From assembly GCA_903813345.2 (NCBI GenBank), contig CAIIXF020000002.1, positions 11,864,150 to 11,928,149 of the forward strand: a stretch of 64,000 bases of DNA, in the 5' to 3' direction. Below the pieces are notes generated by a model, which worked only from the letters and a program-made list of their open reading frames with translations, had not been told where the DNA came from and searched no databases. Position 1 is the first letter of the stretch; the number at the start of each line of letters is the position of its first letter. Source of the stretch: Owenia fusiformis. Taxonomy: Eukaryota; Annelida; Polychaeta; Sabellida; Oweniidae. Positions 32,064 to 61,409 of this stretch are shown piece after piece. The position numbers and the translations under genes are program-made.

Positions 32064-32112
32064 TTCTTTGCAAGTAAATTCCAACCATTTTCTTATTTTT
32101 CCCTCCATATGC
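32064..32112 (-). CDS. MATE paralogue exon 4
   Basis: 49 nt, phase 0 to 1, acceptor CTACAG and donor GTACGT. It encodes AYGGKNKKMVGIYLQR, matching AYGGNNKKMVGVYLQR of the complete gene. Last exon of this copy that I could find. Confidence 0.85.
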
Positions 32113-33315
32113 CTGTAGGAAGAAATACAAAATACATACTCAATTTCATATTTTTTCAATGTAAAACACATTGTGCAACTAAATACAAAGTGACAACGAA
32201 GTCTCGAAGTGGACGCAGTTTAAGATAATTCAACCTTTGCATCATAAGGTACGGATACAACTGTGTAGACTTTTGATGCGTTAACCATAGATTTTGGTCC
32301 GATGTAAAGGCGACAGCAGCGGTAAAATCTATTAACATTTTTCTGGCCTACCATCTTCATTTGAAAACCACTTATATTGGCCTTCAGCCTGATATGAGCG
32401 TTTTGCAAAATGAACGATCTAGAGTCGAATGCCCGGTCGAATGATGAACCAACTGTCTATAAACATGTATTTTTATTGAAAGTGTACCGATTATGTCGCC
32501 ACAAGAGTAATACACTAACTACATGTATAATGTGGACTATTGATCACCTGTGAAAATAGGGTGTCGCAAGCAGTGGCCAAACCGGTTCCTATTGACAAAC
32601 CAAACACATTGATCATCTGAAAATATCAGAAACCAACAAAGTAGGCCTAAGCTTTATTCATTACAATACTAATCGTAGGCGTAACCATGGGGGTGCGATG
32701 GGTGCGATCAACTTTTGTAAAACTCAGCATAAATATTGTTTTCTGGCTTGTTTATGTCACAATCGCACCCCCTGACTGGAAACCGATTTGGGGGGGGGGG
32801 GGTCGCACCCCCCCCCCCCCACCTGAATGAAAGCTGACTACGCCCCTGCTAACTATCATCAAACGTCAAATAACATTGAGCTTGAACATACAGTAAATTT
32901 CTAGCGTTCTTATCAATTAAAAAATAAAATAAATGAATAAATAAGTAGTGTTTTGTCAGATGAAAAATAACTTACAGTATTAGCCAGAGCTACAGCATCA
33001 AGCTCTATCTTGCCTAAGTGACCACAGAATATCAGACTTATTGGAGCAATCAACATTTGCCACAACTGGGTTATAACCTAAATTGGACGCAAAATGCTAT
33101 AAATTAGTGCTTGTAGGAGTATTATGAAAATATGATAGGATCTGAAAGTCAACATATCATTCGGGAGAAAAATTTGTTTAATGACTAGCCTAGTTCCGGT
33201 TGATATCTTAAGATGAAATACTTACCACAGGCCAGGCTAGTTTCAGAACTTCCTTAAATTCCCCCCGGTAGCTATGTTTAAAAATCTTCTTACAGCATCC
33301 CCGAATCATCTTCAT
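32064..33315 (-). CDS. Second MATE-family transporter, 5' portion only (4 exons)
   Basis: Four exons on the minus strand match exons 1-4 of the complete MATE gene at 36-61 kb in length, phase and sequence (90, 102, 69 and 49 nt), with good acceptors and donors and no stops. They encode the N-terminus, TM1, TM2 and the following loop of an SLC47-type multidrug and toxin extruder. Exons 5-17 were not found between 22.7 and 32.0 kb. Either the gene is a 5'-truncated tandem duplicate, or an intron of more than 9 kb carries on into or beyond the satellite. It lies 3 kb downstream of the complete gene in the same orientation, so it cannot be an alternative start for that gene. Confidence 0.8.
32548..32616 (-). 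CDS. MATE paralogue exon 3
   Basis: 69 nt, phase 0 to 0, acceptor TTTCAG and donor GTGATC. It encodes MINVFGLSIGTGLATACDTL plus FSQ, the TM2 signature of MATE proteins. It is identical to exon 3 of the complete gene except for one residue (L for I). Confidence 0.9.
32676..32848. mobile_element. Short MITE-like element with GGGGCGTA ends in the paralogue intron
   Basis: Ends GTAGGCGTAACCATGGGGG and, reverse-complemented, GCAGGGGCGTAGTCAGC. It contains GTGCGAT repeats and facing G and C homopolymers (32,791-32,820). Non-coding. Confidence 0.6.
32976..33077 (-). CDS. MATE paralogue exon 2
   Basis: 102 nt, phase 0 to 0, acceptor ATTTAG and donor GTAAGT. It encodes VITQLWQMLIAPISL... with the family signature FCGHLGKIELDAVALA. 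Same length as its counterpart at 60792 and only a few residue changes. Confidence 0.9.
33226..33315 (-). CDS. MATE paralogue exon 1
   Basis: Starts at an ATG at 33315 with an in-frame TGA directly before it, which fixes the start (MKMIRGCCKKIF...). It ends ...EFKEVLKLAWPV before a GTAAGT donor. The complete gene has the same exon end and the same EFKEVLKLAWPV. Confidence 0.8.
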
Positions 33316-36357: not shown

Positions 36358-36728
36358 TTAAGTCACCATTTTTGTCATATTTGGAAATATAGTGGTCGTC
36401 TCCATGGTAACATTACATATTGGCATTGTCGTGTTAGGTAAAGGTCCTTTGCCATCCCATGGTACACATAACATAGTCAATTCCTCCGGGTATTTGACAA
36501 CAAGTCTAATGAGCACTCCTATACCGACTATAAACAGACATATAAGCACTGTTATCCCTCTTCGACACAACAATGCAGCGTTCGTGAGTTCACCAGTATG
36601 TTCAAGTTTTTCTAAATCAATTGGTGCATTCTCTACAGTGTATGAAGTTGAGAATTGTCTATTGAGTCTGTTTGACCTGATGGAGTTGCCACTCTGCTCA
36701 AAGCTTCTTTCTTTGTTACTTAGTAGTG
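36358..36728 (-). CDS. SLC47A-like: MATE exon 17 (last; TM13 and tail)
   Basis: 371 nt, enters in phase 1 after TTTCAG and ends at the stop. It encodes residues 482-604: a polar cytosolic stretch, CRRG and a hydrophobic helix (about 540-558, ITVLICLFIVGIGVLIRL), then a tail of about 45 residues with three N-glycosylation sequons (N580, N587, N598) and two cysteines. The predicted outside location of the C-terminus after TM13 agrees with the vertebrate MATE topology; the long glycosylated tail is unlike the very short human one. Confidence 0.92.
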
Positions 36729-39700
36729 CTGAAATAGCATATGTCATATATAGTTATGTATCAATATCAATTTGAAATGATATCAAGTTATAAGTTTACT
36801 TTTCATTCTTTTTAATTTATTGTATTGTACCTGTAGTTTCAGATGATTTATCGGTGTCCAGTATTGTTGTTTGGTTGTACATTGTGTCATCGTCTGTCAT
36901 CACACCTCCTCTCTCCTGCGCCTTAAAAACATGGTAATAGTTGAAGGATGAACGATTTTGCATTTCAAAATGGATTTTTATCTGCCCTGCCTTTTTGTTG
37001 TTTCGGTTGCTACAGCAACCATAACTCTGGCCAATCAAATGGGTAAAAGCTCGAAATCTATAGAATAAAGGTAAAAAGGTTTGAGTTATAAGCTCCCCAA
37101 ATTTCATCAAGATTGGTGCAACATTAAGAAAGTTATATTTCACCTTATTTATTGGACACCATTGTTACTCAAAGCAATTATCATATATTTGTGTTGTAAA
37201 AGTAGTGTACCTAATTAGTATGCAGTTTCAACATACATTGAATTGTGTCATTTTGAAACGAAAACTTAATAAATGTATCTATAAAATGTAACGAATCTTA
37301 TGTCAAATGATATGTAATAGTCCTTAAGTTTGCTGGATTGGTACAAGTCCATCAGTACATGGGTACCATTACATACACTACCATAGTATATCGGGAAAAA
37401 TGTGTATCCTCCTTGGTTCCTGCGGTCCCCCGGAAGATAACACATTTCCCTCGAGATAAACACTGTATCTAAAACCTCCCAGTACATAACCCTTATATGC
37501 TGCCATCAAAATAGCGCTCATTAAATGTCGTCGATATCAACACACATTTGGCACACTTTACAATTACAGGTTTGAAATATCAATTATCGTATATAGGCCA
37601 ATCGATAGCCTTCGTGGTTTTGTGGAAATTACACAAATCCTTCTAATTCTTTAGTATCAGTTGGAAGTATTTTACTCAAATAACATGTACATAACATGTA
37701 TGGGATAATAATGAAATATATTACCTGTTTTGCGGCATTGTCCCAGTTAGTGAAGCATACTATCAAGACTAGAGTACTGGATACAAGAATAAGACCTAGC
37801 GTCAACCCCCACCACAGACCTTAAACACAACAAAGCGACACATATATTACGGTAGTTATACATCAACATAGACTAGGCTATTCAATGCTTTCAGATTTAC
37901 CTCACATATTTCATTAAAAAGAACAAAACCACATTTATCTTTATTATTGAATGAAAGGATATATCCCTTGGACGATGGGCTTTCAAATCTTATTGAAAGC
38001 TCATGCTTGGACAGACTTTAATTTTTCAAATGTTTCACATATTGATATCATGCCATTGCCATTTGCACATATTGATCATGATAGACATACTCGTACCTGC
38101 CGCCCTTAAATTAGTAAGGAACATGAGTGGTATTCCTATAGGTAGAGCTATGATATAGTAGCCTATAAACATTGCTATTGCCCCTGGTAGCTGCCTTCCT
38201 GATCCTCGTATAGCTCCTTGAGCAACAGCCTAAAAATTGCCAAAAGTTAATCCAGCGATTGAGGTCAACCAATTGTAGGATCAGAGGTGGAACAGGTGAT
38301 CCCAGTTCAGTCATATCTATTTTTATCCAATGGATACTAATATTTATGGGGATAACGACACAAGATAATTTTGGTATGCGCCACTAAAATCGTATCCGAC
38401 TCATATGACGTCTTAAATACATGTATAGTATCCGCCAGATACGGTTTTTTCATTAGTTTTAAATTTGGCGCCCAATAACCGCTTGTCTGTTTGATCTGCA
38501 ACAATATAGTTCCAAGATTATGTGCTCTGTAAAAATGAGTTAATTTTTTTCATGTAATCAATACTAATCATTTTTTTAAAATATGTCCACAGAAAATAAG
38601 ATGTTAAAATAGAAAAGAACTAGAAAACAACAACTTTTAAGTCAAATTATCTACACAAAATAGCGATCATAGAATAAATATGATATCCTATGCTTTTCTC
38701 GGGCTATCATTTTTCTCCACTCTTGGATATCGCCGATCTCAACTCCTGGATAAAAATGGTATCCCTCAAAAATCATAGGATATCTTCTGTTTATGATGTT
38801 AACAAATTCGGGATATTTGATTGAAAGGTGAACAACTCACAGACAAAAGGTTGTGGTGCTTGTACAACTATACAAGTGCGCACATAGAATAACACTCGAC
38901 GGGGAGATCCGTTGGTCTATTTGGATGGTTACATGCGTAAATTACCACCGGCAATTACGGGATATATACTCATCTCCATTGGTAGAAAAATACAATGCAA
39001 TACAATACAATATAATATAACAGGGATTAAGTGTGCGGTATGTTTTTTCTACCCTCCTACTTTATGGGGCGGAAATATGTAAGATCATTTATTTGCTTTT
39101 ATAAATACAAACAGTTATGATATTTGTTTGATCATCCATTTAAATTTGATTTGACCAAGGCCGTCTTTTTATTTTTTTAGTTTAAAACATATCTGGCATT
39201 CAGATTACGTTTCTTGATGTTGAAAGCATTATGTTTGCCATTCTGGATGACGCTAATTCTAGTTTTTTTTCATCCTCACACCGGAATACCCCGACAACGG
39301 TAAAGTCAGACACATCCACCATAGTCCGTTGTCAAATCTTACCATATGCCGTTGTCTTTATAAATTATTTCAAATTCAGATTCCGTTGTCATTGACGATA
39401 TCGAAGACATTATATTGTAGCAATTCACGAACCCATTTGATAAAAATTGGGATTTCATATGATACATCATTACAAGAGATTAATACATGCACAGAAATAG
39501 CGACGATAAAGTTCCATGAAACGAGGACCAAGTGATTTAAGAGTTGAAGCGACGGTTATGTCCGCCATTTGTGACAACGGTATCTGACTTTACCGTTGTC
39601 AGGGTATTCCGGTGTGATCCTGCTGTGGACTAATGATTATTCAATATATCATCTATTATTAACATATACACTTAGAAATGAAGTTAATAAATTTAATAAC

Positions 39701-42700
39701 TTACACAGTTGCCGTCGAAAAACTGATAAAGGGCAATAATTGGCAGCAAGTTAGCAGATATCTCTATGACGTCACTGAAAGAAACATTAAGACAGAATGA
39801 AGTATTTTTCGTTAAAGATTCAAAAAAGCATTTAAGGACAATAAGCTCTAGGAGTCGTGAAAATGCAATTTAGCCATTTGATTGTTTGGTATCGTGCTGT
39901 TTTGGCCATAAAGTTATTCATAAAATATCGTCTTACTTATCATCCGTGAAAGCCCTTGGAATGTAGAAGCGTAGCGACACAAATATGAGACCGACTGTTA
40001 TGGAACAAACCCCTGCAAACAATAAATGTAATTGGAAGAAAAGAAAAGTGTTTTTAAATAATAATTAAATAAAAATTCACACTTGAAATGGACCTTATTC
40101 CAAGTCGACCTGCAATTTATGTCAACATTTATTTGAATTGACAAGATCATTGAAGGAAATCCTCTCAGAATGGCATTACATTGTGTGTACAATAACGTTA
40201 TTAATCACGACTTAATTATCTAGAAAAGATATACTTACAAACCATGGTAGTGCAAACCCTGAAGCTTTGTACAGCGTAAGACGGGAGATCAGACCCTAAG
40301 TATTGTCCCACCCGTATACTGCATGCTATGCCTAAGCCGAGGGGAATCTACAATGATATACAATTAGATATGTACATCATTACTTATAATTTATATACAA
40401 TTGGATAAATTAATTTGGATAGGTTAATAGGTAGAAAATAAAACAGTAAGACATCCACATACAAAATGGCTATCAAAATAATCACAATAATTTGTGTTTC
40501 TTTTATAAGTATAAAAACAACTAAATATTTCTTCTTTGACCAATAAAAACCTTTAAGGATATTCTATATTTATTATTTAGATTTTATAATGAAATAGTTT
40601 TATTCAAGTTCTTATGTTTACTTTTAACATTTAATGAAACTAAGGAAAAGGCCTTACGATATGTCGTATAGAAAGCCGTGCATTATGATAAATAAACTGG
40701 GAAAAGCTACATGTATGCAGCACACAAGGTTATAAAGAAAAGCTTGGAAGGAAGAAGCATGAATTGTTATATAGAAAGAAAGCAAAATGCATACAGTACA
40801 TTTCGAGAAATAATCATTTTGAACTATAGCTATTCAATGGATCAGAGACATATATGTCTCTGAATGGACTAAATATGAGCTCTGATCTGCGATATCACTA
40901 AGCAGAATAAAATATAAATAGAGACTTGAAAACATATGATATTAATAACAACATAGACTATGTTAATGAACATTATATAATTTTGCATGAATAGTCTTGC
41001 CTCGGGACTGTGTAGCCCCCCCCCCTTACACAGTCTCATGTTGGGTTGGGAAGGTGAAGTACAAAAGAGATGCACAGGCATGAAGCAAGACACTACATAC
41101 AAATTATTTGCAGATTACAACGTGCGTTAGACAGAGCTGCCCTTGTATTGTGAGTTACATGTTATATCACATTTATATTTCTGTACACCTAAAATATAAG
41201 CTATTGGTTTTGATTATCATAACAATCAAAATAAAAAATAGAACTGATAATGACAAAATCTGAAGCATTACAATTTGCTACAACAAAATAATCGAATCCC
41301 AAATATTTGACTTTAAGCACCAAAATCTTACATTATATGCAAAACCGTCCAATTCGACTGCAATCCCATTAGTGCTTTGGTTGTTCAAATCGATCATCCC
41401 TAAAGTATTTCATTAATTAAAAGCCTATATATGTGTAACTCAAATATTTTAATAATTAAGCAAATATAGACGTTGTTTCATACAGTGTCACGTATTAGCA
41501 GGAGTTATCATATGCATTTAAATTACTCAACATTGATGGAATATAATGTATATAAACAATGAATGCTTATATTTCCTTCATTTTGTACAAATTGGAATTA
41601 TCTAAAACCATCAAGTATTATTGAAACATTTGAAAGGATGATCCATGCTTTGTCCAAGAAAATGAAATACTAAATAATAATTATGCAATAATTGGATTTA
41701 TGAAATTATGAACAGTTTGTTGAGGGGAGTAGTACATATGAAAGTATGAAGTAAGAATGATCCATCCCCTGGACAAATATTACGAGCTAACTGGGACTTC
41801 ATTTTTCCACTAGACTTCAAAGTATGACTGCTGAAAACAACCCACAACCCACCCTTGAACCAAGAAATAACAATTAATAATAAATTAATTGGTTTTATGT
41901 GTTTTTTATGGGAGTTAGTCAATTATAACATTTCAATTCTGAAGATTGCATGTAAACAAAACTGGTTGCCAGGAAATACAGTTCAATGTAGGTCAGCGCG
42001 CATGCGCAGAAAATCATCAATTTCCTTCCATTTTTTATTGAGGCTGGAGGTAGCTCTTGATATCTGAGCGAATCTTGTAAGTATTTACCCGCCAACCCTC
42101 CCCCAAAAAGACCACCCATGAATTATCCCCCAACTAAGGTGAGATCAAGAAAATGGTAAAAGAGATATGGTTAGTAATAAATGAAGGTAAGCAACTAAAA
42201 TAATCACTATTATATTGCTCAAATGTATATCCACATAGACCAAAAATACAAATAAATAGAGAAATAGAGGGTAACGTATATATATGTAGATAACAATCGA
42301 TAAGGTAAGCCGAACAATAAAATATCTAAAGGGCGTATATCCCATCTTAATGTAATAAGAATCAATAGATAATTAGACTAATTAAGCTGTAAGTAATGAA
42401 ACGTATTCCTTTAATTAGGCTAATTAAATTATCATTTAATTGTACTAATTAGGCTCCCTGACGGTAAACTGTTAATAAAAACAAAAATTACAAAACTAGA
42501 AAAAGACAAAACAACTCAGAGCTACGTTTTCATTCAAACGACAGATGTTGTTATTCATATATCATTTTCAAGGCAATAAATAATCACATCGACTAAAAGA
42601 ATTTATGTTCAATTTATAGACTTAATATGGTAATGGAATTGGAGACTGTTTTTTCATCAATTTTCGACTTATTGCAATTGAGGAAAAAAATTAGAAAATT

Positions 42701-45700
42701 TGAAGTAGAAAATGTAACAAGTAACATATCGTTATGTTTTTTCTTTGCAGGTTATGAAAAAGGTTGCCAAACTTATGGAGAGGAGTGTATGTGAGTGTCC
42801 TATTTTCGGTTCACCAAGTATTATATCCAATTAGTTCAGACATTCGTTCATTTCAACAGTGTGTGTCTTACTATTGAGGAATTTTTCAAAGAGAATATTA
42901 AAACGGTTTCATCATATCAATCACTTCTTATCGCAAGAAAGTGTTTTCCGCTCAAGAACCAACACCGGCACAACATTTCCATTTTGATTTATCGGCGTCT
43001 ATCTTTTATCCAAGGAATAGTAGAGTCTGTGGATCGCACAATGCAACATTTCCATTACATTTTAAGTCTGGATTGAAATACTTTATTTACTCGTCACCTA
43101 GATCATTTCATATTTTGAAATAATCACGTCCTCAAACGTTGAAGTCAATTAATGCGTCTTACTTTCATGGTAGATGCTTTTAGGGACTTAAAAGGTTGTG
43201 TTTTATGTGTAATACTTTGCCATCGGATGCCCATGACAGTGTTATTATATGCCCCATTAAAACTGTACTTGGCATTAAGACGGACATAGGAACATTGTTT
43301 ATTATAAAACCATCCACCGGAGTTACGTTCTAGTGCACAGTTGCCATTGGACCATAAATCATTATCTCTGTCATTTGTAGTAAAATTTTGCCCATTTAAG
43401 CCCATACTTTTTTTAATGTTGTTTATGCTATCATTAGCCGTGCCTGAGATGTAGGGTCCAATGGACAATCGGTAATTTTCATTTTCCGAATGAATATAGA
43501 AGGGTTCATAGTACGCATCATACCATGATCCATGATGATCCTGGAGGTCAAACTTGATTCCATATGACCCACTAGCTGTTAAAGAATGGATGTTATCGTT
43601 ACCAAGCCAATGCTCACCATTCAAGTTTCCAAATCCACTCTTATATGCTTTCCATAGTTTATCATAAAATGACACGCTTCCATCAAATCGTTTCTGCAGC
43701 ACGGTCCAGCCACCATCTGTCATATCGCAGAAAACCTCGAAGGCAGGTTTTCGAGGATTCGGCTGAATTGTATATACTCCATTAGATACGTTACAGCTAC
43801 TGGACAGATGGTCTGAACAGTCACGCTTCATTTTGTCTTGTTTCTTGGGGTAGCATTCACTATACAACCATCCATCAACCGAGATTATTAAACCATTTGA
43901 GTTCTGTCTATGGATTAACTCACACGTTTTACTAAGTGGAGAGTAATTGACCGCCTCACAGTCAGCAGATATTTGACACTTTAGTATACAAAATTGTTTC
44001 GTTTCTATGTCACTTAACTGTTTCATGGCATCAACATTTAATTTTTTACCATTGATGATTTTGTAATATTTTGAGATGACGCATCCTTGTATGTTATGAT
44101 GTATTAAAAAGAACATCGCGGTTGTCATAAGTACAACTATTAAACTACAGCACATCATTAACACTTTAAATGTACCGATTTCTCGCTAAATGTGTGTGAG
44201 TTTAAATTATCAGACAAATAATCGTTGCTTGTGTATTTTATACGTTCGCGTATACATTCGGTATATCTGATTTAATCTAGATATTAACTGAAAATTGCAA
44301 ATTGGGATATGACAATCCTTCTACCTGCTTTATAAACATTTGCTAAATAGTAAATAAGCAATCGGTGTAAGGGCAGGTTGGAAACAAACGTTTCGCCATT
44401 TGAGGCAATCAATAATGAATTTCACATTCTCCAATTACGAAGGTATACCGAATAAGTATAATACAAAAATTGCAATTGCAGAGTTGATAATACATTAGTG
44501 CCACACGAACTCTTATATTTTATTTATCATTCATTCTCTTATCAACCTTTGTTGTTAATCTGTTAAAATGAGATGTAAAGTAACGAAACGTTTAACACAC
44601 TTGGCGTGAATATATGAACTATAGATTATAATGAATTACTGGTCTTTAGAGTGTATTTATCAAGCTGATGTGCCTCTCCCTCCTATCTTTGATCAAATGA
44701 ATGCTATTAAATCCCTCGGTTACTTCATTTATAATTAATGATTTTGGCGATATACACTAAGTTGTTAATAATGATTATCAGTAGGCAATAATGAGGATAT
44801 CATTCATTATTACATCACTGTCAAGACAGCAGTTGTATGATTGGTCAAAATCGTGTCACATATCATGGAATATCAAGCGATATTCACTGGTCGTGTCTAT
44901 CAACACTAAATACCCCCGGGTAAGTACCACCCATTGGATTCATTAGAGCTAAATTAATCAAACAATTTAGGCTATCACAACTTTGATTTTAGCAATAAGC
45001 ACCACCCATTGGAGCCATTAGAGCTTAATTAACCAAACAAAGGCTATCACAATTTGATTAATACTAAATACCCCCGGGTAAGTACCACCCATAGGATTCA
45101 TTAGAGCTTAATTAAAGGCTATCACAACTATCTTTAAATGAAATAATTCATGCTATTCGTGAACAATACTAACTCACATTGTATACAAGACCATCAATCT
45201 GCATTACAATACTCTGAGTTCCCTGCTGAGTTAAACCTAAAATACCTGTAAAACACAACTGTTGCTAATGAATAGTTTGTATTAGTCCACATCTCACTGA
45301 TAATATGACTTCGCATTCTCATTTACTACAAAGAAGAATATGTTAGGTGAATTCATTATATCATAGGTTGTATATAGGGAGTAATGTTTCTAGCATAAAT
45401 AGGATAAACTTATTGCTTATTTTGAAAAATACATTGTTTGTAAACATTTCTGCCAACACCTCATGACATCATGAATTTTGGCAAAATATTTTAGCTTATT
45501 TTGGGAAGCAAAGAGTGGCAATGTTTACTGGAATGGTATAATGAGATAAGATGATCAGTTATAAAAATAAGTTCCATTTTTAGCGATCATTGATAATTAA
45601 CTTTGATGAAAATTGCTAGATGTTTCTCAAAGTTAAATAATTGTTAAAACACGTCACGCATCAAATGAACACTATTTTATAAGGTAAAGAAATTAATGAA

Positions 45701-48700
45701 AGAGAGTTTAAATGTGTAAAATGCAGACTTTTAATTAATTAGTAAATAGATTTTTTTCCTGGTTCAATCAGAATTCCAGGGATAGAAACTATGAAACACA
45801 AAATGTATCTAATGTTGATACCGTAGAGTCCATGTGACCATTTTCATCTGGCTGATTCCAAATACCATAAACCTAGAATACTTTTGCAGATGAAGGGACA
45901 TACTTTGGTATCTTATTTGATGCACTATTCGGGCATTGGCGATGCTCTCCCTTTGGACATGCTTTTGGTTGAGGGATATGGGCATGCTCTGCTTTATTTA
46001 AGGCATTAGGCGTTCACTGTTCAGTCTAACATGAATATTTAACATGCTCTGTTTTGCTTTGGCATCAGCCATATATTGCTTTGGTTTTCGGCGAGCCCAA
46101 TCATCTCTTTGAAATGAGAAAGTTACTATTTTGGCTTTAATGGCCAACTTTAATAATGTTGCGGGGGCATACCACCCCCCCCCCCCCCTAGGATGGACCG
46201 AAAAAATGTTTGGGCCTAAAATTAGTGGCCCTTTTGGGACCCTTATTTAGTCGTATCATGTTGTCAGATTTTAAATGACATCAGGACATACTCTTAATGA
46301 GAGGCTATCTATCTGATCGAGGATTCCCTGTGCTCCCAATGTAGCTGCACCGAACACTCCTATAAAAGGAAAACAAAACGGAACTCTAGGAGAGCTTATA
46401 AATAAGGCAGTGGTAGTGATTGATGTCTCTGACACTGCCGCCTCTGTTGGTCTATAGAGACCAATTGAATCATGAGCTCTCAAGAGAATGGGTACTGCTG
46501 TGTGGTTACTATCGTGAACAAAAAAGTCAGTTGTATTCTACGCATGCCTTGGTAATCCAAGATAGAGGGGAGAATAAAGAAGGTAGAAAATATTGTATTT
46601 CATACCTACTGAGGTTCTAGGTACATAACGAGAGGGAACATATTAGTGTATCGGAGCTATCGACAAGAGGTCCGGGACGGGATGGATACAGGCTGTATCC
46701 ATCCTGTCCCACTTTTGAAAAGCAAACTCAGTTTTCGTTTACTTCATTAACGAGATGAAAATTATATTTTAAACTTGTGCTGTTAGTTTTACATTTTGAT
46801 ATCAATTCATTGATCGTTTTTGAAAACCTCAATAGGTATGGAATACATCTGCGTACTGTCGATTTTGGATTAGGGTTTATCGTTCGGTCCACCCTTTTTT
46901 TCTTGGGATAAACCCTGTATCCAAAACCTCCCAGTACATAACCCTCATGTATGATCGGATGGTTTTTAAGTAAATTCTTTAAAAATAGTCATTATTTTCC
47001 AAAAACATATTAGAAAATCAAACTGAATCACTTTTGCTTATCACATGTCGTCTTGCAAAGTTGACAATGATTATTTTCTTGTCCTGCTAGTTAGCCTGAG
47101 GGATCATCCTCAAAGGTACACTTTGTGAACACTAAACCCCCATGTTAGGAATTCTCCATCGTGCATAGCACAATCTTTAAATTGAAGAAAATATGAAAGA
47201 AATGCAGGAGCAGAAACCTGTAAAGCTACATGGTATATGTGCACCCTTATACATCACTAGTGCGTATACTCGACATCCAATCCCTGTTTAAATGGAGGCG
47301 CATGTTTTCGGATTCTCAATTTATAGCGAACTTACATTATTTACGAAAGCACTATTCTGCATTGCAATACTCTGGGTCGCAAGTAGAGAAATATCTAAAA
47401 TACCTGCAGAACAAAAATGACAATATGATACTCTAAGACAGTTAAAAAATAAACACATGATACAACAAGTAGTGACTACTAAGTACTATCTAGTAAATGC
47501 ATTGCGCGTGCTTGCCTATATGTAAATGTCTTACAAACACTAGTTACTACTGAAAACTGTCTAGGGAATACATGTGCGTGCTTGCCTATATGTAATTAAT
47601 GTGGAACAAACTTGGGAATGGATGTGTTTCAGTGTGTGGTCAAAGTTTTAAATCATACATTTTGTTTCCTTACATGATTTAAAGTACGAAACGTTCGATC
47701 AATCAGCGATGATGTAATTTCATCCTTGGATACATACAGTATTGCAGTACGTCAAGACCCTTTTGTGTGCAACAGTTTTTGATAAGGATATGTGTGGATG
47801 AAGCTCTGGTTTGGTGTCTATACAGGGTGGGCTAGAATAATGACCAGTGAATGGAATTTGAGCTTGGCCCACACAACATCTTTGGAATCCAAGCCATGCA
47901 AACATCGAATATAATGTACTTTACATTCCAGGCAATCATGCCAGATTGCATCAAGATCCCCTGGGCAGCGAGGACTGAATTTCCCAACAAACCTAAAGGA
48001 ATATTGCAATGATACAATATAGATATGTCTAGTTGTAGTCTCAGTTGTAATCTACTAAGAGAGGATATTCCTAACTTGGTCTGCAAAACTATCGCAACAA
48101 TGGAACTTAAATAAGTTATTGTAGCAATAGGCCTAACTATCTATATCAAAATTCCCCTGCCGCAACTGTGCTTGCTTCATCGTTAATGGTGCAGCGTACT
48201 GTTTTGAATAATCAACTAACATTATGATGTGCACTTTGGAAAAGGAACTACGGTAACTAATGAAGTGAAGCAAGCCAGATTAAGTGCATTCTAATCTTCA
48301 AGACCGGGCTTCACTGCTAAATTAGCAGCACTGCACTACCCCTGGACCAAGGATGGATTAAGCGACAAATTAAAGTGTGCTAAATGAAATCCTAAGCAAT
48401 TATATCAATACAGTTTGAACCTGATATGCAAATGCATCCGCCTGTATTTGGATTCCTTGGGCCGCCAAAGTCTGTGTACCTAGTAATCCTACATGGAATG
48501 AAAATAAAATGGATGTTCAACGTTTCAATCAGTAGCGGCCCATCTTGATTCACAACTTCAGTCAAATCATTGCGGTAGCTATAAACGTATCCATGGACAT
48601 TCATGGTGTATCTTTAGCTATCTTCTTGTTTATATGTATTGACCTGATGAAAACAATATCCTTTAATAGTGGGTGCTCAATCGGTACCCTTTGGAACCAC

Positions 48701-51700
48701 ACAAGGTTGATGCCATAAGCATTCTTGAATGACCTGTCGAGCCAAAATATCAGCAGAAAGAGAAACCGACGTGAGAGCAGAGACTTCTGGGGTAAAGAGG
48801 AATATAAGAGGACCAATATGAAAACGAACAATGCATGCAATACTGCAGGTAAAGACTAGATGTGTCTTCTCGTATAAGTATAACTGGTGCAGGGATTAAC
48901 AAAATACATTAGAATTAGATGTAGTATACAGGCAATCATAACAGTGCTCTTTGGAATTTTTATAATTTGGAAATAAATATTAGGGTTGCGAAATTAGAGG
49001 ATTATATCAAATACTTCTTCTAAGAAACTGGCTTCTCCCAAGACAAACATACAAATGTTTTTCGTTGGGATGGTAACTAGAAAGAAGATTGCAGGTTGTA
49101 GTGTAATGGCCGGGGGTGGAGGTGGTTTGGATGGAAAATAAATAGTATAACTATATGCAAGCCAGATATCCTTAATGTAAGTGTGTCAAATCTGATAGAA
49201 TGTTTGTGCATTGAACCTGGAATAACTATATTTCATGAAATCCGTTTACCATATACCCCATGTAGTCTATTTGGAAGCATATGGACTGCGCACCAAGATC
49301 ACTCCCTCCTAATAAACCTGGCAATATATTTATTCAAATCAGAGATAAGAGATGACATAATTATGCTCGACATAGCTTCCAAAGATAAGTTGGAGTAGAT
49401 TTGTTGCAGTAGCAACTTCTCGTTGTTCAGGATCGTTACACTATCCCCTTCTGAAAGGACTAAGCCCTCGAAGTCAACCCTGCTATTCACTAGTAGATAT
49501 TTTCACAGGATGCAACTACTGCTACTACAGTATAGGTATGAACGAGATGTGCATAAGTAAAGTATAAGTAAACTATATATACAGGGTGTTCACTAAGTAA
49601 TGATACTAGGTCTCCCATTTGTACAGTTTTTAACCAATTTTCCTAGATTTTGCACATATTATCCGGCATGTAATTGTTAGTGCACGTACCAAAGTTCATT
49701 TCCCAAGAATAAAAATAGTTAATTTTATCATATACATTTCGATTTTGTAACATTGTCCTTGACACAACACGTATTACGTCACATTAAACAACAATTAAGG
49801 AACATTTAATTTTGAACATACCACTTCTGCGAATGATACAATACATTATTTTTATTCCATAATATTACTGTTTTCCCAGGGGAATATGAAGGAATAAAAA
49901 TCGTATTGAATCGTATTACATGAAAAAATCGTATTGTCCCCGGGAAAAATCGTATTGGAGCGTATTTACACGTCGCACGAAACTGGGGACAATTAGCGTA
50001 ACATTATGGCGTCAAAAACCAAGACAAAACAATGAGCAGAATAGGGCGCAAACAGCCTTACAACGTCAAAAACGACAAGCGTCACATTTTTGTCAAGTTT
50101 AGTCAACCTAAAAATAAAATACTTTATCCTTATCTAATCATGACAAAATTCACAGGGTAGCAAGATCTCGAGGACAATATTTCTAAAATGTTTTTGAATT
50201 TTGAAAAACGGCCAAGAAATCCACTTGGGGCGTTGGTAAAAATTGATATGTATGGAATTTGTGGTAAAAAATCGATGCGTCACATTTTTTTCAAGTCTCG
50301 AAAACCAGCTCTTATTTTAATATTATTTGCAAAATAAACAAACTGGTTATTGTTTTGTAAATTTCGCCATGACAATATTGTTCAGTTAATTTTTCTTTCA
50401 AATCAGACTTGAATTAGAAGGTTAAATGAAGGTAAACTTATTGCTCGTCCCATTCGCTTACAAAACCTTACACAATTTTGAAAATTTTAAAAGCGTTCAT
50501 ATGAGACAATTTGAGCTGTAGCCGTTAAGCAATTGTGACGTCATAAATGAACATGTTCCATTGAATAAATTGTGAAATTTTAGTGGGATTTTGATCATTA
50601 TTTCAAAAGTTATCCCAATTTCAACGAGCCCTGTAAGTGTAAAGTGTTACGTCTTACAGCGTATTTGACGATGTCGGGATATGTTTAACTTTAAAAATAT
50701 GTTGGATCCCATCAACATTTTAAAGAAAAAATAATTTCACTGAAATGCGAATAAAAAATACTTCAAAATGATATATAAAACACATAGCTAGCTTTTTAAA
50801 TAAGGCAGAGATTAACGCTCAAAGCTGAAATCAGTCCGTATTTCCCGAATTGTCCCCAGGTCCGTGCACATCATAATTACATGAAAAAATCGTATTGTCC
50901 CCGGGAAAAAATCGCATTGGAACGTATTAACCTATTTTTGGTTTCCCGGTTATTTTTAACCTTGGCCAATTACCCAAATGCGAGTAGGTAGTTACCAGTT
51001 TCACCACCAGGTGGCTGATTCGGGTCAATTAACATGGCAGGTATATAAGAACGTTCACTTAAACTTGAATATTATCAATTTAAGTGGCTCAATTTACATG
51101 TAACCCTTATGTGTCTGATACTTATACTAATGAAAATATATCCAGTAAAGCAAAATATTATCTGTCCACTAAAAGAAAAGATATTTCATTTTTTGTGATT
51201 TTATAGCATGGGGTCTATGGGGAATCTCCCCGAGCTAGAAGTCACATTTTCAAAGAAAATTAATTTTTCAAAGTTAATAAACACTTTTTAAAACCACATT
51301 TCTAGATGTAATTTTACATGTAGATTTCAAATATGATATTACTTTGACTGAATTTTGAATTTTTAATGACGTAAATCAAGATTATTTCTACTCGCATCTG
51401 GGTTATTGATAAAAACATTATCCAAATGTAACATTTTAGAGGAATGTATTATGGAATAAATAGGTTATTTATGGTCGGGATTGAATATGGGTTTTATTCC
51501 TCGGAAAATATGATATTGACCTTGGGAAATATCATATTGACACTCGGTCGCTGCGCTCCCTCGGTCAATATCATATTACCCTTCGGTCAATATACCATGT
51601 TGCTTGTTGCAGCGAGTTTCCCATTTCCACAAAACCTGTTTTCCGATGACGTTTGACTTTTGACTTACCCTTTGCATTCGTTTGACTTTACTTCTTAAAA

Positions 51701-54700
51701 GAGAGCTTCGTCTTCAGTTCAACTTGACTCTGCACGCAGGGTACTTTTGACTTTGACTTTCCGATGGCTTTGGACCCATGTTGCAAATTGTTGCAGCGAG
51801 TTTCCCATTTCCACAAAACCTGCTTTCCGATGACTTTTGACTTTGACTTTCCGATGACTTTGGCAAACCTTCCAACTAAGACTCGTGGAGATCCCAGACA
51901 TCGCAAAGATCTTCTTAACTAGGACTATTATGATGTCATACTATGAATGAACCATACTGTGAATGTATCCACTAAACAGGACATATTTTGAATAACCATC
52001 AGACATAAATTTAATGGAGAATGCATTGCTCAAAGTTATTTAAATCCCCATCATACAATACACAGTTTCATCAAAATTGAGTATATTTGATGTCTGTGTC
52101 ATTTCATTGTTTGGAGGTCATGATTTTTAAAACTTTTCAAATAAACTCACAATTACATTTTATAAGATATGCTGAAAAAGCAAGATTCCTCAAAAGTTGA
52201 CGAAATGTGAGACTTAGTGTCATTAGTTAGTGAACACCCTGTAGTACGGAACCTGCTACAACTACTACTACCACACAAGGCATTGATCTAAGGGCGCCTC
52301 TTGGAAATGACTTTGCTATGCAAAGTGTAACAAGCCAGGTACAGACATGGAAGAAAATGTGCCACATTCAACTCCTTGTCTGGAAATCGAGCCAAAGAAC
52401 AGGATAGAATCCAAGGCCCGATGCACTACTGATCGAGTTACCACAGTTTCAGATATGGTAGCCGTGTAGTATTATCAATTTGCTTTCCAGGATCTTCACG
52501 ATAACATAGGTTCAATTAAATTACCTAATCGAAACTGGGACCTTAAAATACTCTGACTGCTGCTTAACCATGGAGTTATAAAATCTATATTTGCTATTTC
52601 CCTCCACCACAACTCCCTCCCCCCTAAAAAGGATTTGGAGTTAGTTTTAGATTAAAATAGTACTATTTGTTTACCATATAACCTAATGACTCAATTTGGA
52701 AGCATATAGACTGGGCACCAAGATCACTCGCTCCTAATATACCTGCCAATATAGAAATACTTTTTGCCTATTTGGTATTGAGGTATGTTCAGAAATGTTT
52801 TAATTAAGCTGATCATTTCGTTTATCTTTGACAAAATTATTCATTCTAGAATTTAATGATGATTATAAACTTATTTTGAAGTAAGAGCAGAAATGCTCGC
52901 CAAAAAATTAAACAAGACATTTAGAAGATACAACAAATATATGTTCACTTACCGGTGAGGAATGTACCAATCTCAAAGCTCCACCATTCAATACAGATCA
53001 TCAACATGCCAGGTATAGCAAGCTTCATGTATGTCCCCCAATGTTGAAAAGCATCGAGTGTCCATCCTGTAAAAAAAGAAAGGTCGAACATTTTCAAATC
53101 AGATAGCATGTTTTAGCGATTATGGTGATGGCTTTGCCTTTGGATATTGACCCTTTGACACTCTCATTACAGTTTATATTGCCGGTCCCATAATTGAATG
53201 TATTAATTCTTGTAAAAACAATGCTAATGCTAATGCCCCCTCTCCCACTACTCAGGAATCATTTTCACAATACAAGATCAACGGGACCAGTGGACTGAAG
53301 ACCATAACAACACAAGTTCAAGGATATATTAAAATACCAATATTATAACTTTAGCTTGGGATCAAAAATATTTGTAGATACTAGATATAATAGCAAATCT
53401 ATACAATATAGCATTCAGTGATATGAGAAGTAAAATTCTTTAAACGGGCGAGACGTGATTTAGAAAAGAATTTTTTTGCAAAAATAAGAAAGGGAACGTC
53501 CCATTTTCAATTCTAAAGAATTAATCCAAACAGTTTGCATCTTAAATCTTTAATAACTTGATATCTAAATTCTTTTTAGGACTACTATTTTTTCATATTT
53601 ATTGCAATATTTTATAACTTCTTTAAGTGTGATAATTAGTGCTCAGCAATATATTGTGTTCAATTAATTATTCAAAGTATAGATGACAAACCTCCCCATG
53701 TCTCCACATAGATTTTGCTGACAAGTATATAGATGATGTGAAGTAGCAGCATCGTTCCATATGAGATCACTTGCACCACGGCTGAACCCCTAAAAACAAA
53801 TTCTCGTATGATCAGCTGATGATAGTCTAATTATGTTTTGATAGTGAATTATTCTTTGTAAATAAACACTTGAGACGTTGACAAGGACTCATGTTCACAT
53901 AATATGACACTACAAATTAATAAAAAACACGTCCAAATAGTTTTATGTTCTCTAAAAAGTTAATGTTTGGGTAATTGAATAACCTAAAGCAGTGAAACAT
54001 TAATTCTAACTTTAATTATGTTAGATTTGAATCAACAAGAGAATCACCATATCCTTGAAGAGTCTGAGCAGGTGTTATGGTGCTGGAGTTTTGGGTAGAA
54101 TTATGGTGCCCATCAAACAGTGTGCAAAGTGCACTATGTTCTAAAGAATCAAGAGTCGCAAGAGGTCTCTCCTGTTATTGTATTCATAAAACACAGGGTC
54201 ACACTTTTATTCACGAATCATATACAGGAATCCTTTATTATACAGGGTGTCAAATAAATATGTTCTTCCCTCCTTAGCTTAAACATCCACATAATGTTGC
54301 ATAACTTTTTTCTCTACATGATATCTGAATTGTTCTTTAGCACATCAAAACTAGGCTTCACAGAGCAACTCCACGAGAAATTTCAGATGACTAGCTCAAG
54401 TAGATGCACTTTTATGCAAAAATTTCATTCTCTTGAAATTAAGGGGGAGAACATATTTTTGACACCCTGTACTATCCACTAAATGCAATCTATAATGGAG
54501 GAACAGGCAAAAATGTCCCTTACTGTATGCCAAAATTCCACACATAAATGACAACATAGTGCAGTACGGCATTGACGACATTAGCGATCGCTCCAATAAA
54601 TAGTGATGGAAATACAATGTTCTGATTCTGAAGGTATTTTGTTATGACTTGGTAGAGAAAGTTTATCTGAAAATGAAACATAAAATATTTTAATGGAGAA

Positions 54701-57700
54701 AGTACTCTTAATGATGTCTTACTTCATTCCTAGATCCATTACATTTATGACAACATAGTGCAGTACGGCATTGACAACATTACCGATCGCTCCAATAAAG
54801 AGTGATGGAAATAAAATGTTCTGATTCTGAAGGTATTTGACAAGCACTTTATACATAAAGGTAAGCTGAAAATACAATTAAAAGTGTCCACATAAAAAAG
54901 TATAGCCCATGTTCAGAGTTCATAATTATGCACTTAAAACAAGGTAATAGTTGAGAGTTCACGATCAAGCATCTAAAACAAGGCAACAGTTGAGAGTTCA
55001 CGATTAAGCATTAAAAACAAGGCAACAGTTGACAGTTCAATTCAGCATCTAAAACAAGACAACAGTTGAGAGTTCACGATTAAGCATTGAAAACAAGGGA
55101 ACAGTTGAGAGTTCACGATCAAGCATTAAAAACAAGGCAACATTGAGAGTTCATGATTAAGCATTAAAAACAAGGGAACAGTTGAGAGTTGACAATTAAG
55201 TATTTAAAACAAGGCAACATCGAGAGTTCAAGATTAAGCATTAAAAACAAGGCAGAAGTTGAGAGTTCACAGGCAACTGTACAGAGTTAACAATTAAGCA
55301 TTTAAACAAGGCAACATTGAGAGTTTACAATTAAGCATTAAAAACAAGGCAACAGTTGAGAGTTCACTATTTAGCATTAGCATTCAAAACAAGCCAGCAT
55401 TTAGAGTTAAAGATTAAGCATTTAAACAGGGCAGCTGTTCAGTGTTCACAATCAAGCATTCTAAAACAAGGAACTTCACTGAACTTGCAAGCTCACATTC
55501 AAGCATTTAAAACCATACTTACAAAAAGTCCGGGTATAAAGATTAATAGGTACTCTCCTGCACCCCTATAAAACGAGAGAATAACATGCATTAATGTGTC
55601 ATGGTATTAACAGTTTGAGACAATGTACAGTATACGTATTAAAATGATTTCGATAACTTACGCACCATATGTTATGACATAATAAATCATTAGTCATCAA
55701 TATTTGTTTACATACTTAGCAACTTGGTGATCCTGCCCAATAGCACGTAATAAGCCCTCGGCGTTAAGATGAAGCGGGACCAAGACCACTGCACCGAGAA
55801 ATATCATCAACAAGCCTAAATGAAACAGAAAATTAACAAAACTCAACAAACCTTAAAACAGAATAACACACATGTATCAAAAAAGGCTATTGATTATGAT
55901 AAATAACTAGTCTTTGAAAATTCACTAACTATAAAAGTATGAAAAGTAAGTTATACATACTTCTTTGTAAGTAAACCCCAACCATTTTCTTATTATTTCC
56001 TCCATAGGCCTGTAAATAATGAATATAGTGTTTAGTAAAGTGCGCTATATTTCATTTTAACCAGAGGCATATAAAACTGTTTTAACATATTATATGTATG
56101 ATGCATGTTTTCGTTGTTAGATAATAAAGCAATAGTGCTGATTGGGAGACAACATAGACCATTGATATTTTTAGGCAAAATTAGCATTTCTCCAAAAGAT
56201 GCACATACATGGAATATCGATATCTAGGACTAACGTTAAATGAACATCTTGATATGCGACAAACTGTTAAAATACTTGCAAAATCAGCAAATCGTGCATT
56301 AGGAATGCTAATTGCCAAATCAAATGTAAAGGGTGGATTACCAAATGCAGTATTTACAAAACTATTTGACGCTCTTGTTTCCCCTATTATGTTATATATG
56401 GTGCCGGCATTTGGGGTATTCGACAATATTCAGAAATGAATACAGTTCAAAACAAAGCAGCGAGGTATTTTCTGGGTGTTGGACGTAGAACACCAAATGG
56501 ATCAACCAAAGGAGATATTTGTTGGACTTCGGTATTTACCAAACAGCGTGTCGAGGTGACTAGACTTTGGTGCCGTTTAAAAAACATGGCTACAGATAGG
56601 ACACCGAAACATATATCAAAATGGTACTTTCGACATCATAAATCTTGGGAAAATCTCTCCCGGAAAATGTTACAAGATCTGGACTTTACTCAGCTTATCA
56701 ACAATGATACTTTATCTCGAGTTAAATGCCATCTTAACGAGGTCAAAGAAGCGTGTATCAGAGCAGATCACGTCGAATGACACAACAGTTTTTGGGACGA
56801 TAGTCGTAACCCAAATGGCAACAAATTACGGACATATACAGTAGACTGTTTAAAACACATTCCATGCAGCCCGCCCATTATACTTGTATCAACATGTCAA
56901 GGAGTGTACGCAGAGCTATTGCCCAACTCAGAAGTGGAACACTCCCATTGAAGATCGAAACTGGACGATATAACAATACCCCACTCCAGGATCGCCGATG
57001 TCACTGTGATAGTTTAACTGTTGAGGACGAGTTTCATTTTCTTTTACAGTGCAATAGTTACATTATGAAGAATTGAGAACTCCATTGTTTTTAGATTGTG
57101 TTTAAGAAATTCCTGACTTTCACCAGTTTTGCCATATTCAACAATTTTGCAATATTATGTCAACACAAAGCTTACAAAGGACACTATCCAAAACACTTAT
57201 AAAAATGATTTTAAAAAGACGTACTCTACTGTGATAATTTAACCTTTTATATAGTCATTATGTCGACACCGGCCAGGCCAGACGATTTTAATATTATTGT
57301 TTTATAATTGTATGTATTTTAAATGTTGTGAGACATAAATAAAATATAACATAACATAACATATTATGTGAGAATTGACTAATTAAAAAATTCATGTCAA
57401 AAATAATATCAGAGCTGCACAATGAGACTTTCTTAGCGTTTGTTCCCGCCATCATTGATTCTTGCTTAAAGAAATAAATAATGAAAACTTGCATTGTTTG
57501 ATTTGAAATTCTACATACATTCAGACGTTATATACTCCCTAATGTTCATGAATTTGATTCACATCTGCTAATTTGAATAGAGTTTATGGGGGGGGGGGTG
57601 TATAGAGATATTGTATATCGTATAAGAGGGTGTAAATATATTGTATATTGTATAAGAGGGGGAAAAATTTATCGTATATGGTATAAGAGGTGTAAAAAAT

Positions 57701-60700
57701 ATGGTATATTGTATAATAGAAAATATATGGTATATGGTATCTAGAATTAAAGAAGGCTAATTATGAAGAAATTGTACCCCTAAGTTCCCCATTGTGTCAA
57801 CTCTCTTACTGTAACCGTGTTGGAAAAACATGGAAAAGTAGTCTCTCTAATTCGTTCCACATTCCAGGTCAATCAATACTGTAAGTTCAGAGAAAATCAC
57901 TCTCAAACTAAGAGTTTTGTGCCCTTTTCATTCAAATTTTTACAGGAGGTGTTAAATACAATCTCTAATAAGAATCACGCCCGGTGACCAGAAGAAATGA
58001 CCGGAGGGGGAGTAGCTGATTTTCGGTAGAAAATTCAACAAATCTAGATTTATTTTTTCAAGAGAAAGTTTACAATTGAATGGCTAAATGAATAGGCGCA
58101 GTGGACGGGGAAATATGTTAGGTCTTCTTGGATTTTTTTTGAGCTGTGGAGTTCTAAGATAAAAGATCTATTAAAAAAGTGCAAACTGTCAAATGCTGGA
58201 TTTCGGCTATTTATTGGGGATTTGATCAAATGTTCATGGACAGGTGCATATATTAGGCCAATGCATTATCTCCAGATCAAGCACTCATAGAGGTAATAAA
58301 ACAATTTAGACTTTGAGACAGGGAAGGTTTTTCTGAAATGTTGTCTTGATTTTCAGCCCTTTCCACATATGTTTTTTCAGTGTTTGATGCCCCAATATCT
58401 TGCACTTTGAGACACAGTTTTGAGACACTGTTAACCTTTAAAATATGATTCATTTGGGATAAAGTGGAAAACAAAATTTCCAGTGTTATTTTCCCATAGG
58501 AAAAACTCATGTTATCCATTGTTTTCAGCTAAATTTTGGTCATCCAATGACTGCTTGTCTTGGAGTTAATGCATTAGCCTTACATATGACTGAAATCTGT
58601 TGCGATACCATGGTCCTTTAAAAGAAAGTTATTTCTAGTTACATAGAGTAGTTTTCATTCTCATCAATACATCTTTGCCTTGAAATAATTCGTGAAACAT
58701 GTGGTTTGACCTATATGGAAAGGAGTGGTATCGATATGGAGAACTTTTTGAACACACGTTTCCCTTAAACCAGTCATAAAAAACCTAAAAATTTAACACA
58801 TCGTCAATTTAATGGTCATCTTTTGATTTTGAATGGTAACAATATAATTTGAAAAATATAAATATACTTTCATCTATATTGTTTTAGAAAACACATCAAA
58901 CACTTGTTTTGTTCTTGGTATCATGTTTCCAGAGTGAAATGCGACATCTTTCCGAACATCATTGGAATAAAACGACATAAACACAACATGTTTATATATA
59001 GGTCTCTCAATATTGTAATTGTCCAAAGGAAATTTTAGTTGATTTTAAAAAAGTATTTTGTCAGTTTGTTCATGAAATAAACGGTTTATTTTTATCTTTT
59101 TGTGGGGGATTTTGTTTTAATTTTTTGAATACTTTTTTAAAATCAACCAAAGATTCCTTTGTATAACCTACTGGTATAACTATAATATTGAGAGGTCTAA
59201 AAACATGTTGTATATGCTATTTTGTTCCAACAAGGTTAGGAAAGAAATTTTATTTCATTCTCAAGAATTTGTACAAAGGAGCAAAACCAATTGCACTAAA
59301 AAACAAAAAATTTTAACAAAAACAGTTCTATAAAATATTTCGCATTAAATTGTTGTCAATCAGTCAACATTACATAAAATACCGTGTTTTTAAACAGAAT
59401 GTTTTCAATTATTGGTTTAAGAGAAAAACATTGTTGAATTCAGTTTTCCATATCAATACTACTCCTTTGCTTAATTTTGACACACCTTTGTTTAACTTAT
59501 ACTGTCTTTCAGGCTGCCTTATCTGAAACCCCGAAGTGTCTCTGTTTCAAATGTTTAAACAATCAAGTCTCATCTTGCCTTTATTTCAAACTCTAGTTGC
59601 CAGACTCGAGTCCAATCAAAAATGAATTATCTACATGGAAGTTTGTGAAGTCCTTTATTTCTGAAACTGTTTTCAATACTTAATATTTTCCAGGTAACTG
59701 CTTTACAAAATTATTGTGCATTATGAATCTTCATTATCTATCTGATACAATCCTCAGCAAACTTTATTTTCATAGAACACATGTTGAATCTTTTATTCCA
59801 CATTCATGTGGAATGTTTCAAGGAAACACATGTTTCAAGGAATTTTTCCCCGGCTCACTATGAAGGATTCCATTGGCATTAAAATAAGTCATGGGGAAGT
59901 AAGTCATAAGAAAGAGGAACACAGAGTTCCACCCACTACAATGATGCAGGTTTTGTGCTTATTTTGAATATCTTTATGGAACTTTTACAGGCAATGGCTT
60001 TAGCAAATTGCAGAAATGTTAAGTTAGTGTTTTGGTTAAAGCAGGTTGTGAATGTGAAATCACTAAAGAGAAGTCATGAATCTTATACCATAAATGTGTT
60101 TTAAATCAACTTGTTTACCTGAAAATAAAATGTGGTCACAGCTTTTCTGAACATGTGGAAGTACCCGAATGGCGTCTTATTCATAATGTAATAAATGAGA
60201 TCATTGTGGTATGAAGTGGAGTCTATTTGCCTCATAATAATATATTTACTTTAGTACATGGATTCTCTCCTTATATTATTTCCTTATAAATATCCAAACT
60301 TCAATCAACAGCAGTTTCAAAATTATCGTATATTGTATTTCACTAAAATATCGTATATGGTATAAGAGCTGTGAAAAATATTGTATATTGTATAAAAGGG
60401 TAGAAAAAATATTGTATATGGTATAAGAGAGCTGAAAAATATTGTATATGCATTTCCAAGACCCCCTATACACCCCCCCTTTTTGTGAGTGTCCCGTTTT
60501 TATTTGCCCTCCCTGTATATGTCCATAGACCCATAAATCAATTCAGTAATTATTACCTGTGAAAAGAGAGTGTCACATGCAGTGGCCAGACCTGTTCCTA
60601 TTGATATACCAAACACATTGATCATCTGGAAGTGTCAGGTTACAAGAATTATTGTTTAATTAAATAAAGTATTATAAATGTAAAACAATACCGCAGTTCT

Positions 60701-61160: not shown

Positions 61161-61409
61161 CTTGGTTCGTGGAAGTTCAAAATGATCACTAGCTGTTCCT
61201 CCTGTGCTGAATGTACCACTACCTGCAATATATTAACAATTTGCTGTAAATTATGAGGTTATTGAGTGGTTGATTCTGTATATCGTGTTTATACTCAAGT
61301 GAATATATGATCATATACTCACGAGAGTAAGTGATTATCCAAACCTAAGTAATAATAACATATACGCCATCTTTCAATCAATAAAAAGTTAATCTAAATT
61401 GACCAGTTG

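Follow-up and report, generated by a model that had tools for sequence, protein, structure and literature searches.

MATE transporters help determine which cationic drugs and toxins exit the cell, and the locus described here raises the question of whether one such gene could encode several versions of the same pump. The locus lies in a stretch of 64,000 nucleotides (nt) of the Owenia fusiformis assembly (498 Mb; C2:11864150-11928149), which we call the window and to which coordinates refer unless stated otherwise. On the minus strand this window carries a MATE (SLC47-type) gene in which exon 7 is present in two versions and exon 10 in eight. We propose, with a probability of roughly 0.8, that these are two clusters of mutually exclusive exons and that the choice of exon 10 swaps one wall of the drug-binding pocket. 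The exon anatomy, the frame logic and the relationship to MATE proteins are direct observations, and the location of the pocket is predicted from an alignment and a structural model. An initial annotation made from the DNA letters had described the exon 10 versions; it lacked the exon 7 pair, a single-copy tandem paralog, and the pocket residues that fall within the variable segment.

Eight versions of exon 10 and two of exon 7

Each of the eight versions of exon 10 (cassettes c1 to c8) is 68 nt long, preceded by AG and followed by GT, runs from phase 1 to phase 0, and encodes 22 residues. All are on the minus strand, at 52675-52742 (c1), 49250-49317 (c2), 48421-48488 (c3), 47925-47992 (c4), 47336-47403 (c5), 46292-46359 (c6), 45178-45245 (c7), and 41332-41399 (c8). 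The initial annotation had these coordinates, borders, phases, and lengths right. Its statement that every cassette is open in this frame only applies to six of the eight, with c3 and c4 open in one additional frame, and the motif that it proposed (ILG....AQSI..Q.D...Y) is a loose one, in that only the isoleucine at position 12 is identical across all eight and c8 departs from the motif with N for Q at position 10 and E for Q at position 15.

We compared the cassettes with a profile of 105 distinct segments from other MATE proteins, a vertebrate-rich set drawn mostly from the best 120 of 305 matches, which left out the protein of this gene and included two more distant Owenia MATE proteins; 118 of 122 other proteins cover the cassette without gaps. 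When open AG-68-GT segments on both strands of 174 kb were ranked by this profile (919 segments, a number inflated by tandem repeats in the region), ranks 1-9 were taken by the eight cassettes and the exon 10 of the tandem paralog, with scores from 45.1 to 2.9. The segment at rank 10 scored -4.8, the rest had a mean of -29.7 and a standard deviation (s.d.) of 7.5, and no AG-68-GT segment beyond ranks 1-9 scored above 0 in the 174 kb. Judged by its sequence, the cassette array is not chance.

The two versions of exon 7, 7a (54723-54865) and 7b (54524-54666), are each 143 nt long on the minus strand, run from phase 0 to phase 2, share 72% protein identity over 47 residues, and are separated by an intron of 56 nt, with 7a the first of a likely mutually exclusive pair. 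Both clusters consist of neighbouring homologous exons of equal length and phases (8 x 68 nt and 2 x 143 nt), and neither length is divisible by three. With exon 7 in two versions and exon 10 in eight, 2 x 8 = 16 full-length proteins are possible, and all 16 combinations give the same 624-codon open frame from exon 1. The best match to the product among ~5.8 billion proteins is a deposited 671-residue Owenia fusiformis protein, P0001, which is identical at 624 of 624 residues to the model that combines exon 7b with cassette c7, and which carries 47 additional N-terminal residues.

The flanking exons set a strict frame requirement, which the initial annotation had recognised: exon 9 (52953-53066, minus strand) ends in phase 1 and exon 11 (40239-40347, minus strand) starts in phase 0, and zero or two cassettes break the frame. 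Without exon 10, the frame runs into a stop 515 nt upstream of the last exon junction, and inclusion of two cassettes leads to an early stop in all 28 pairs, 591-636 nt before that junction (in genomic order, with exon 7b). For exon 7, the corresponding stops lie 677 nt before the last junction when it is skipped and 993 nt when it is doubled. Because zero or double inclusion gives an early stop, such transcripts should undergo nonsense-mediated decay. We envisage that one version of exon 7 and one of exon 10 would enter each mRNA, presumably under regulation, and that exclusion would be enforced at the protein level because skipping or doubling shifts the frame towards an early stop. At the level of the genome, the exon anatomy strongly supports the mutually exclusive use claimed in the initial annotation.

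Predicted position of the cassette in the drug pocket

The product matches the MatE domain (PF01554) in two stretches with 200.5 bits against a curated cut-off of 24.9 and aligns to human MATE1, which bears out its annotation as a MATE transporter. An AlphaFold2 model of P0001 (predicted TM-score, pTM, 0.78) contains 12 long helices and one more at residues 598-625, and the closest fold in the PDB is that of metformin-bound human MATE1 (9r1f; TM-score by target, 0.95). Human MATE1 (SLC47A1; 9r10, 9r1f, 9r1g) thus has the same fold and belongs to the same family as the Owenia protein, and its residues 286-307 align to the cassette without a gap (all residue correspondences are counted on this alignment), in agreement with the 22-residue length noted previously for the human segment; we know of no exon array in human MATE1 itself. 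In the model, transmembrane helices (TM) 7 and 8 span residues 306-337 and 339-375, with a predicted local distance difference test score (pLDDT) of 89-95 in ten-residue blocks from 331 to 360. The cassette, at P0001 residues 336-357, is predicted to begin with the final two residues of TM7, continue through the turn, and end with the outer half of TM8, so the earlier label of helix 8 was nearly right but omitted the end of TM7 and the turn. Exon 7b corresponds to residues 217-263, which include the second half of TM5, a loop, and TM6.

Cryo-electron microscopy structures of human MATE1 from 2025 are described as showing the ligand within the C-lobe, where E273, W274, Y277, Y299, Y306, and E389 line the pocket, with I303 touching cimetidine and 1-methyl-4-phenylpyridinium (MPP) (PMC12559748). 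Y299, I303, and Y306 correspond to cassette positions 14, 18, and 21, and from c1 to c8 the residues are F, F, I, M, M, D, M, V at position 14; S, Y, A, M, A, S, G, G at position 18; and Y, Y, Y, W, N, L, Y, Y at position 21. The pocket wall would accordingly gain an Asp at position 14 in c6 and exchange the Tyr at position 21 for Trp, Asn, and Leu in c4, c5, and c6, respectively. Human E300, termed essential (PMC4556958), corresponds to position 15, where c8 alone has E and the other seven cassettes have Q. In AtDTX14, Asn281 and Ser290 are assigned to a predicted extracellular gate and Gln296 to a hydrogen-bond network (PMC5696359), and these residues correspond to positions 4, 11, and 17.

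The acidic pair of the MATE family is retained and lies outside the variable segment. The equivalent of E273 is encoded by constant exon 9, together with that of W274 and an F for human Y277, and the equivalent of E389 is a D encoded by constant exon 13 (39705-39774, minus strand); AtDTX14 also has an Asp at this place, Asp383 (PMC5696359). Each exon 10 cassette would give the C-lobe substrate pocket another wall while the putative proton-coupling acidic residues remain constant, and because the wall varies and these residues do not, the isoforms should differ in the organic cations that they bind and export. The substitutions Y299A and Y306A in human MATE1 are reported among the strongest shifts in the half-maximal inhibitory concentration of metformin, and Y299F as raising MPP uptake 1.7-fold (PMC12559748). 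Given the varying pocket positions and these mutant effects, we propose that the cassettes may tune substrate choice.

Exclusion mechanism and alternative explanations

Steric exclusion is described for distances of less than 50 bp between donor and branch point (PMC5740500). The introns between exon 10 cassettes measure 428-3778 nt, well above this limit, so distance cannot enforce exclusion there. The 56-nt intron of the exon 7 pair falls within it if the branch point lies more than 6 nt from the acceptor, and the exon 7 copies are thus close enough that they may also be held apart sterically. A frame check followed by the presumed decay of RNAs with skipped or doubled exons is available to both clusters.

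Several observations weigh against two regulated clusters with a variable pocket wall. First, we detected no clear RNA-pairing signal of the Dscam or MRP type at the exon 10 array. A docking-selector search, in which 24-nt windows of introns 0 and 8 were paired with the upstream or downstream flanks of the cassettes (12 shuffles per setting), gave values inside the shuffle range in three of four settings, in what is a weak test on one species. In the fourth, an intron 8 dock with downstream selectors reached -23.0 against a shuffle mean of -21.6 and a best shuffle of -22.4; this dock overlaps a run of G, and the setting is therefore not counted as evidence although it lies beyond its 12 shuffles. 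Pairing between the upstream and downstream flanks of the cassettes was no better than in shuffled sequences (mean z -0.11; 60 shuffles each, one species), and no 9-mers were common to the cassette flanks. Second, we considered whether variation is concentrated in the pocket and rejected this as unproven, with a permutation p of 0.11 for the three pocket positions against random triples. Third, Y299A and Y306A in human MATE1 are reported to change MPP uptake little, by ~ +10% and -20% (PMC12559748). Fourth, c5 (4.9) and c8 (2.9) are the lowest-scoring cassettes and fit the family profile poorly.

Lastly, the deposited protein shows only c7 among the eight cassettes and only 7b among the two versions of exon 7. 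The Owenia annotation is described as based on RNA-seq, with 99.29% of 31,903 transcripts supported (PMC9977687), and P0001 presumably derives from it. In clusters at 90% identity, P0001 is one of four member sequences and the related Owenia protein P0005 one of two; these cluster sizes would fit several isoforms of both proteins. Searches with alignments of the isoforms returned 3 matches among 26 candidates for short proteins (all eight cassettes in the alignments) and 26 matches among 1558 for medium-length proteins (c1, c3, c4, c5, c6, and c8 in the alignments). Two matches, P0004 and P0124, were labelled as Owenia, and both lack an exon 10 cassette; 12 of the 28 different matches were inspected by sequence.

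The alternative that survives best, though we consider it unlikely, is that the cassettes are used but the choice among them is unregulated, with nonsense-mediated decay clearing RNAs that contain none or two and the pocket changing by neutral drift. The frame logic would suffice alone for such a system. The lack of a clear signal in the docking and flank-pairing tests agrees with it, as do the pocket positions, which are not significantly more variable than others. Most free choices among eight cassettes would however be wasteful, and human MATE1 mutants at the matching positions alter drug handling.

We find it more improbable still that one or a few cassettes are in use and that the remainder are decaying old duplicates, or pseudo-exons, that add little diversity. 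The single c7-7b combination of the deposited protein would be expected under this explanation, as would the low scores of c5 and c8 and their unusual residues (among them D at position 3 and N at position 10, the latter in c8). The divergence of the array argues otherwise. Of 28 pairwise comparisons between cassettes, 15 show saturation at synonymous sites and 26 a synonymous divergence (dS) above 1, and yet all eight cassettes keep their length, frame, and AG/GT borders, which argues for selection; even c8 lies ~4.4 s.d. above the open AG-68-GT background. Three pairs are younger by their proportions of synonymous (pS) and nonsynonymous (pN) differences, namely c1-c2 (pS 0.41, pN 0.10), c5-c7 (pS 0.43, pN 0.27), and exons 7a-7b (pS 0.36, pN 0.14), and in each of them pN stays below pS. 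In a few distant pairs pN is close to pS (0.61 versus 0.59 in c5-c6 and 0.59 versus 0.61 in c4-c8), and no constraint is therefore visible from such pairs alone.

That the exon copies are an artefact of assembly or of a gene cluster, with fragments of several MATE genes misjoined, would fit the tandem paralog and long repeats of the region but is highly improbable, given that only exons 7 and 10 are multiplied within an otherwise complete gene, that the cassettes are too diverged for assembly doubles (38-83% nucleotide identity), and that the deposited protein carries the same exons on a scaffold of equal length.

Other MATE genes of Owenia

The tandem paralog, paralog B, carries exons 7 and 10 in one copy each; the exon 10 is 68 nt long and 91% identical to c1 as protein. 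Its first exons lie in the window at 33312-32065 on the minus strand, comprising part of exon 1 (33226-33312), exon 2 (32976-33077), exon 3 (32548-32616), and the whole codons of exon 4 (32065-32112), and the gene continues up to 24.3 kb beyond the window start. The deposited model of this gene, P0004, joins exon 9 to exon 12; the genome carries both exons 10 and 11 there, and we therefore do not read P0004 as exon loss; the model may contain an annotation error or may reflect a genuine short form. Paralog B also has a large intron 4, which holds seven to eight long repeat units ~2.4-3.3 kb apart (1-22700, plus strand), each with internal tandem repeats of ~163 and 96 bp. Between the two tandem genes, synonymous divergence is 0.23 at exon 14 and 0.10 at exon 17 compared to 0.86-1.33 at exons 2, 5, 8, 9, and 11; these low-divergence stretches (38229-38098 and 36726-36361 on the minus strand, and their counterparts in paralog B) make the 3′ part of the genes look like a product of gene conversion.

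A MATE family search of the genome gave matches at four places and missed this gene's own exons, so that the census of Owenia MATE genes is incomplete. The gene for P0005 (C2, 8.80-8.81 Mb) has a single exon 10 and a double exon 11, whose open, AG/GT-bordered copies lie on the minus strand at 7859-7751 and 6738-6630 of L016 (G000:C2:8804000-8813999). These copies are 109 nt each and share 22 of 36 residues (pS 0.86, pN 0.26), and they likely represent a further mutually exclusive pair. In a MATE gene on C3, exons 9 and 10 are fused into one and present once, and at a fifth locus (C2, 26.29 Mb) the 10 kb examined contained earlier exons only. The eightfold array is thus present in one of four Owenia MATE loci with a readable exon 10 in this incomplete census. 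With exons 7 and 10 multiplied here and exon 11 in the P0005 gene, at least two MATE genes of Owenia have undergone exon multiplication, and the exons affected differ between them. P0124, the third close paralog in Owenia and also on C2, has a partial model that stops following the MATE family towards the end of exon 9; the gene caller might have been confused there by an array or by an unusual exon 10. Its locus was not found within 110 kb to the left and 60 kb to the right of the window, and the P0053 locus was not found in our searches.

Gene model and other features of the window

The gene model, built from local tblastn matches and splice sites, comprises exons 1-17 on the minus strand, extending from position 61222 down to its stop at 36358. 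What the model counts as exon 1 (61077-61222) is the second coding exon; the first coding exon, which encodes the 47 N-terminal residues of P0001, has its match beyond the window at 65152-65012 on the same strand. Upstream of the variable exons the model continues with exons 2 (60792-60893), 3 (60557-60625), 4 (55961-56009), 5 (55716-55815), and 6 (55523-55565, 43 nt), and exon 8 lies at 53692-53789. Downstream of exon 11 are exons 12 (39937-40012), 14 (38097-38229), 15 (37725-37819), 16 (36831-36921), and the last coding exon, 17 (36358-36728), which contains the stop. An AG acceptor is present in all 25 exons and cassettes, and a GT donor in all except the last exon.

The intron between c7 and c8 contains an open frame of 346 codons (43148-44185, minus strand, the same as that of the gene) that encodes PAN and fibrinogen C-terminal domains and is FReP-like. 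None of eight other open frames in the window matched a Pfam family.

Discussion

MRP, the Drosophila Multidrug-Resistance like Protein 1, is an ABC transporter and is unrelated to MATE in fold and energy source, while Dscam1 is an adhesion receptor. In the chloride cotransporter NKCC2 (SLC12A1), which is a solute carrier with mutually exclusive exons, as the Owenia gene would be, the three exon 4 cassettes A, B, and F encode a membrane helix and tune ion affinity. The closest parallel in design is MRP, a multidrug exporter, as the Owenia protein probably is, with clusters of two and eight exons as in Owenia; those of MRP are described as mutually exclusive, with 16 possible isoforms of which nine were seen by nanopore (PMC4588896). 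The two differ in that RNA pairing has been reported for MRP (PMC6071210) and was not clearly found at the Owenia array. A published list for D. melanogaster gives clusters bigger than MRP's eight exons only in Dscam (PMC6071210), and MRP exon arrays are stated, with reference to other work, to have arisen independently in several phyla (PMC6071210, PMC7434440).

The exon 4, 6, and 9 clusters of Dscam1 resemble the Owenia array as tandem homologous exons, one of which enters each mRNA in Dscam1 (PMC4588896) and would do so in Owenia, and they are described as being under docking-selector control (PMC6071210). Unlike the Owenia gene, they comprise 12, 48, and 33 exons with 38,016 isoforms (PMC4588896), and the initial annotation's comparison to Dscam-like diversity was accordingly too strong, as 16 forms match Drosophila MRP. 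Among human tandem duplicated exons, ion transporters are reported as recurrent hosts, and a third mutually exclusive exon is mentioned for SLC12A1 (PMC9741552). Exons 6a and 6e of coq-2 in nematodes, flatworms, molluscs, and annelids are likewise described as mutually exclusive and as altering the substrate choice of a membrane enzyme (PMC7434440), but coq-2 differs from the Owenia gene in having two exons only and in encoding an enzyme rather than a transporter. Among open-licence papers, considered by title and the start of the abstract, we found no report of a mutually exclusive exon array in a MATE/SLC47 gene, in line with the initial annotation, which knew of none, and nothing on MATE in the literature on annelids and transporters. 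The Owenia MATE array would therefore appear to add to the known mutually exclusive exon arrays, as one whose connection to a drug pocket is unusually direct.

If the cassettes are used, a single gene could yield pumps with differently shaped drug-binding pockets. The gene appears to retain eight options for one pocket wall, with a mean pairwise identity of 0.36 among the cassettes (28 pairs) compared to 0.47 among the 105 MATE segments, which range from flatworm to mammal (5460 pairs). The cassettes offer naturally occurring candidates for specificity variants, set in a scaffold that stays constant. MATE would also join MRP as another multidrug transporter family, the second and an independent one, whose exons follow a 2 x 8 design, and this would make the convergence testable. 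More tentatively, and at somewhat less than even odds, the gene may provide a repertoire of 16 pumps with the pocket rebuilt cassette by cassette, as part of a repeated diversification of exons in Owenia MATE genes and of a 2 x 8 chemical defence convergent with that of MRP in an unrelated transporter fold.

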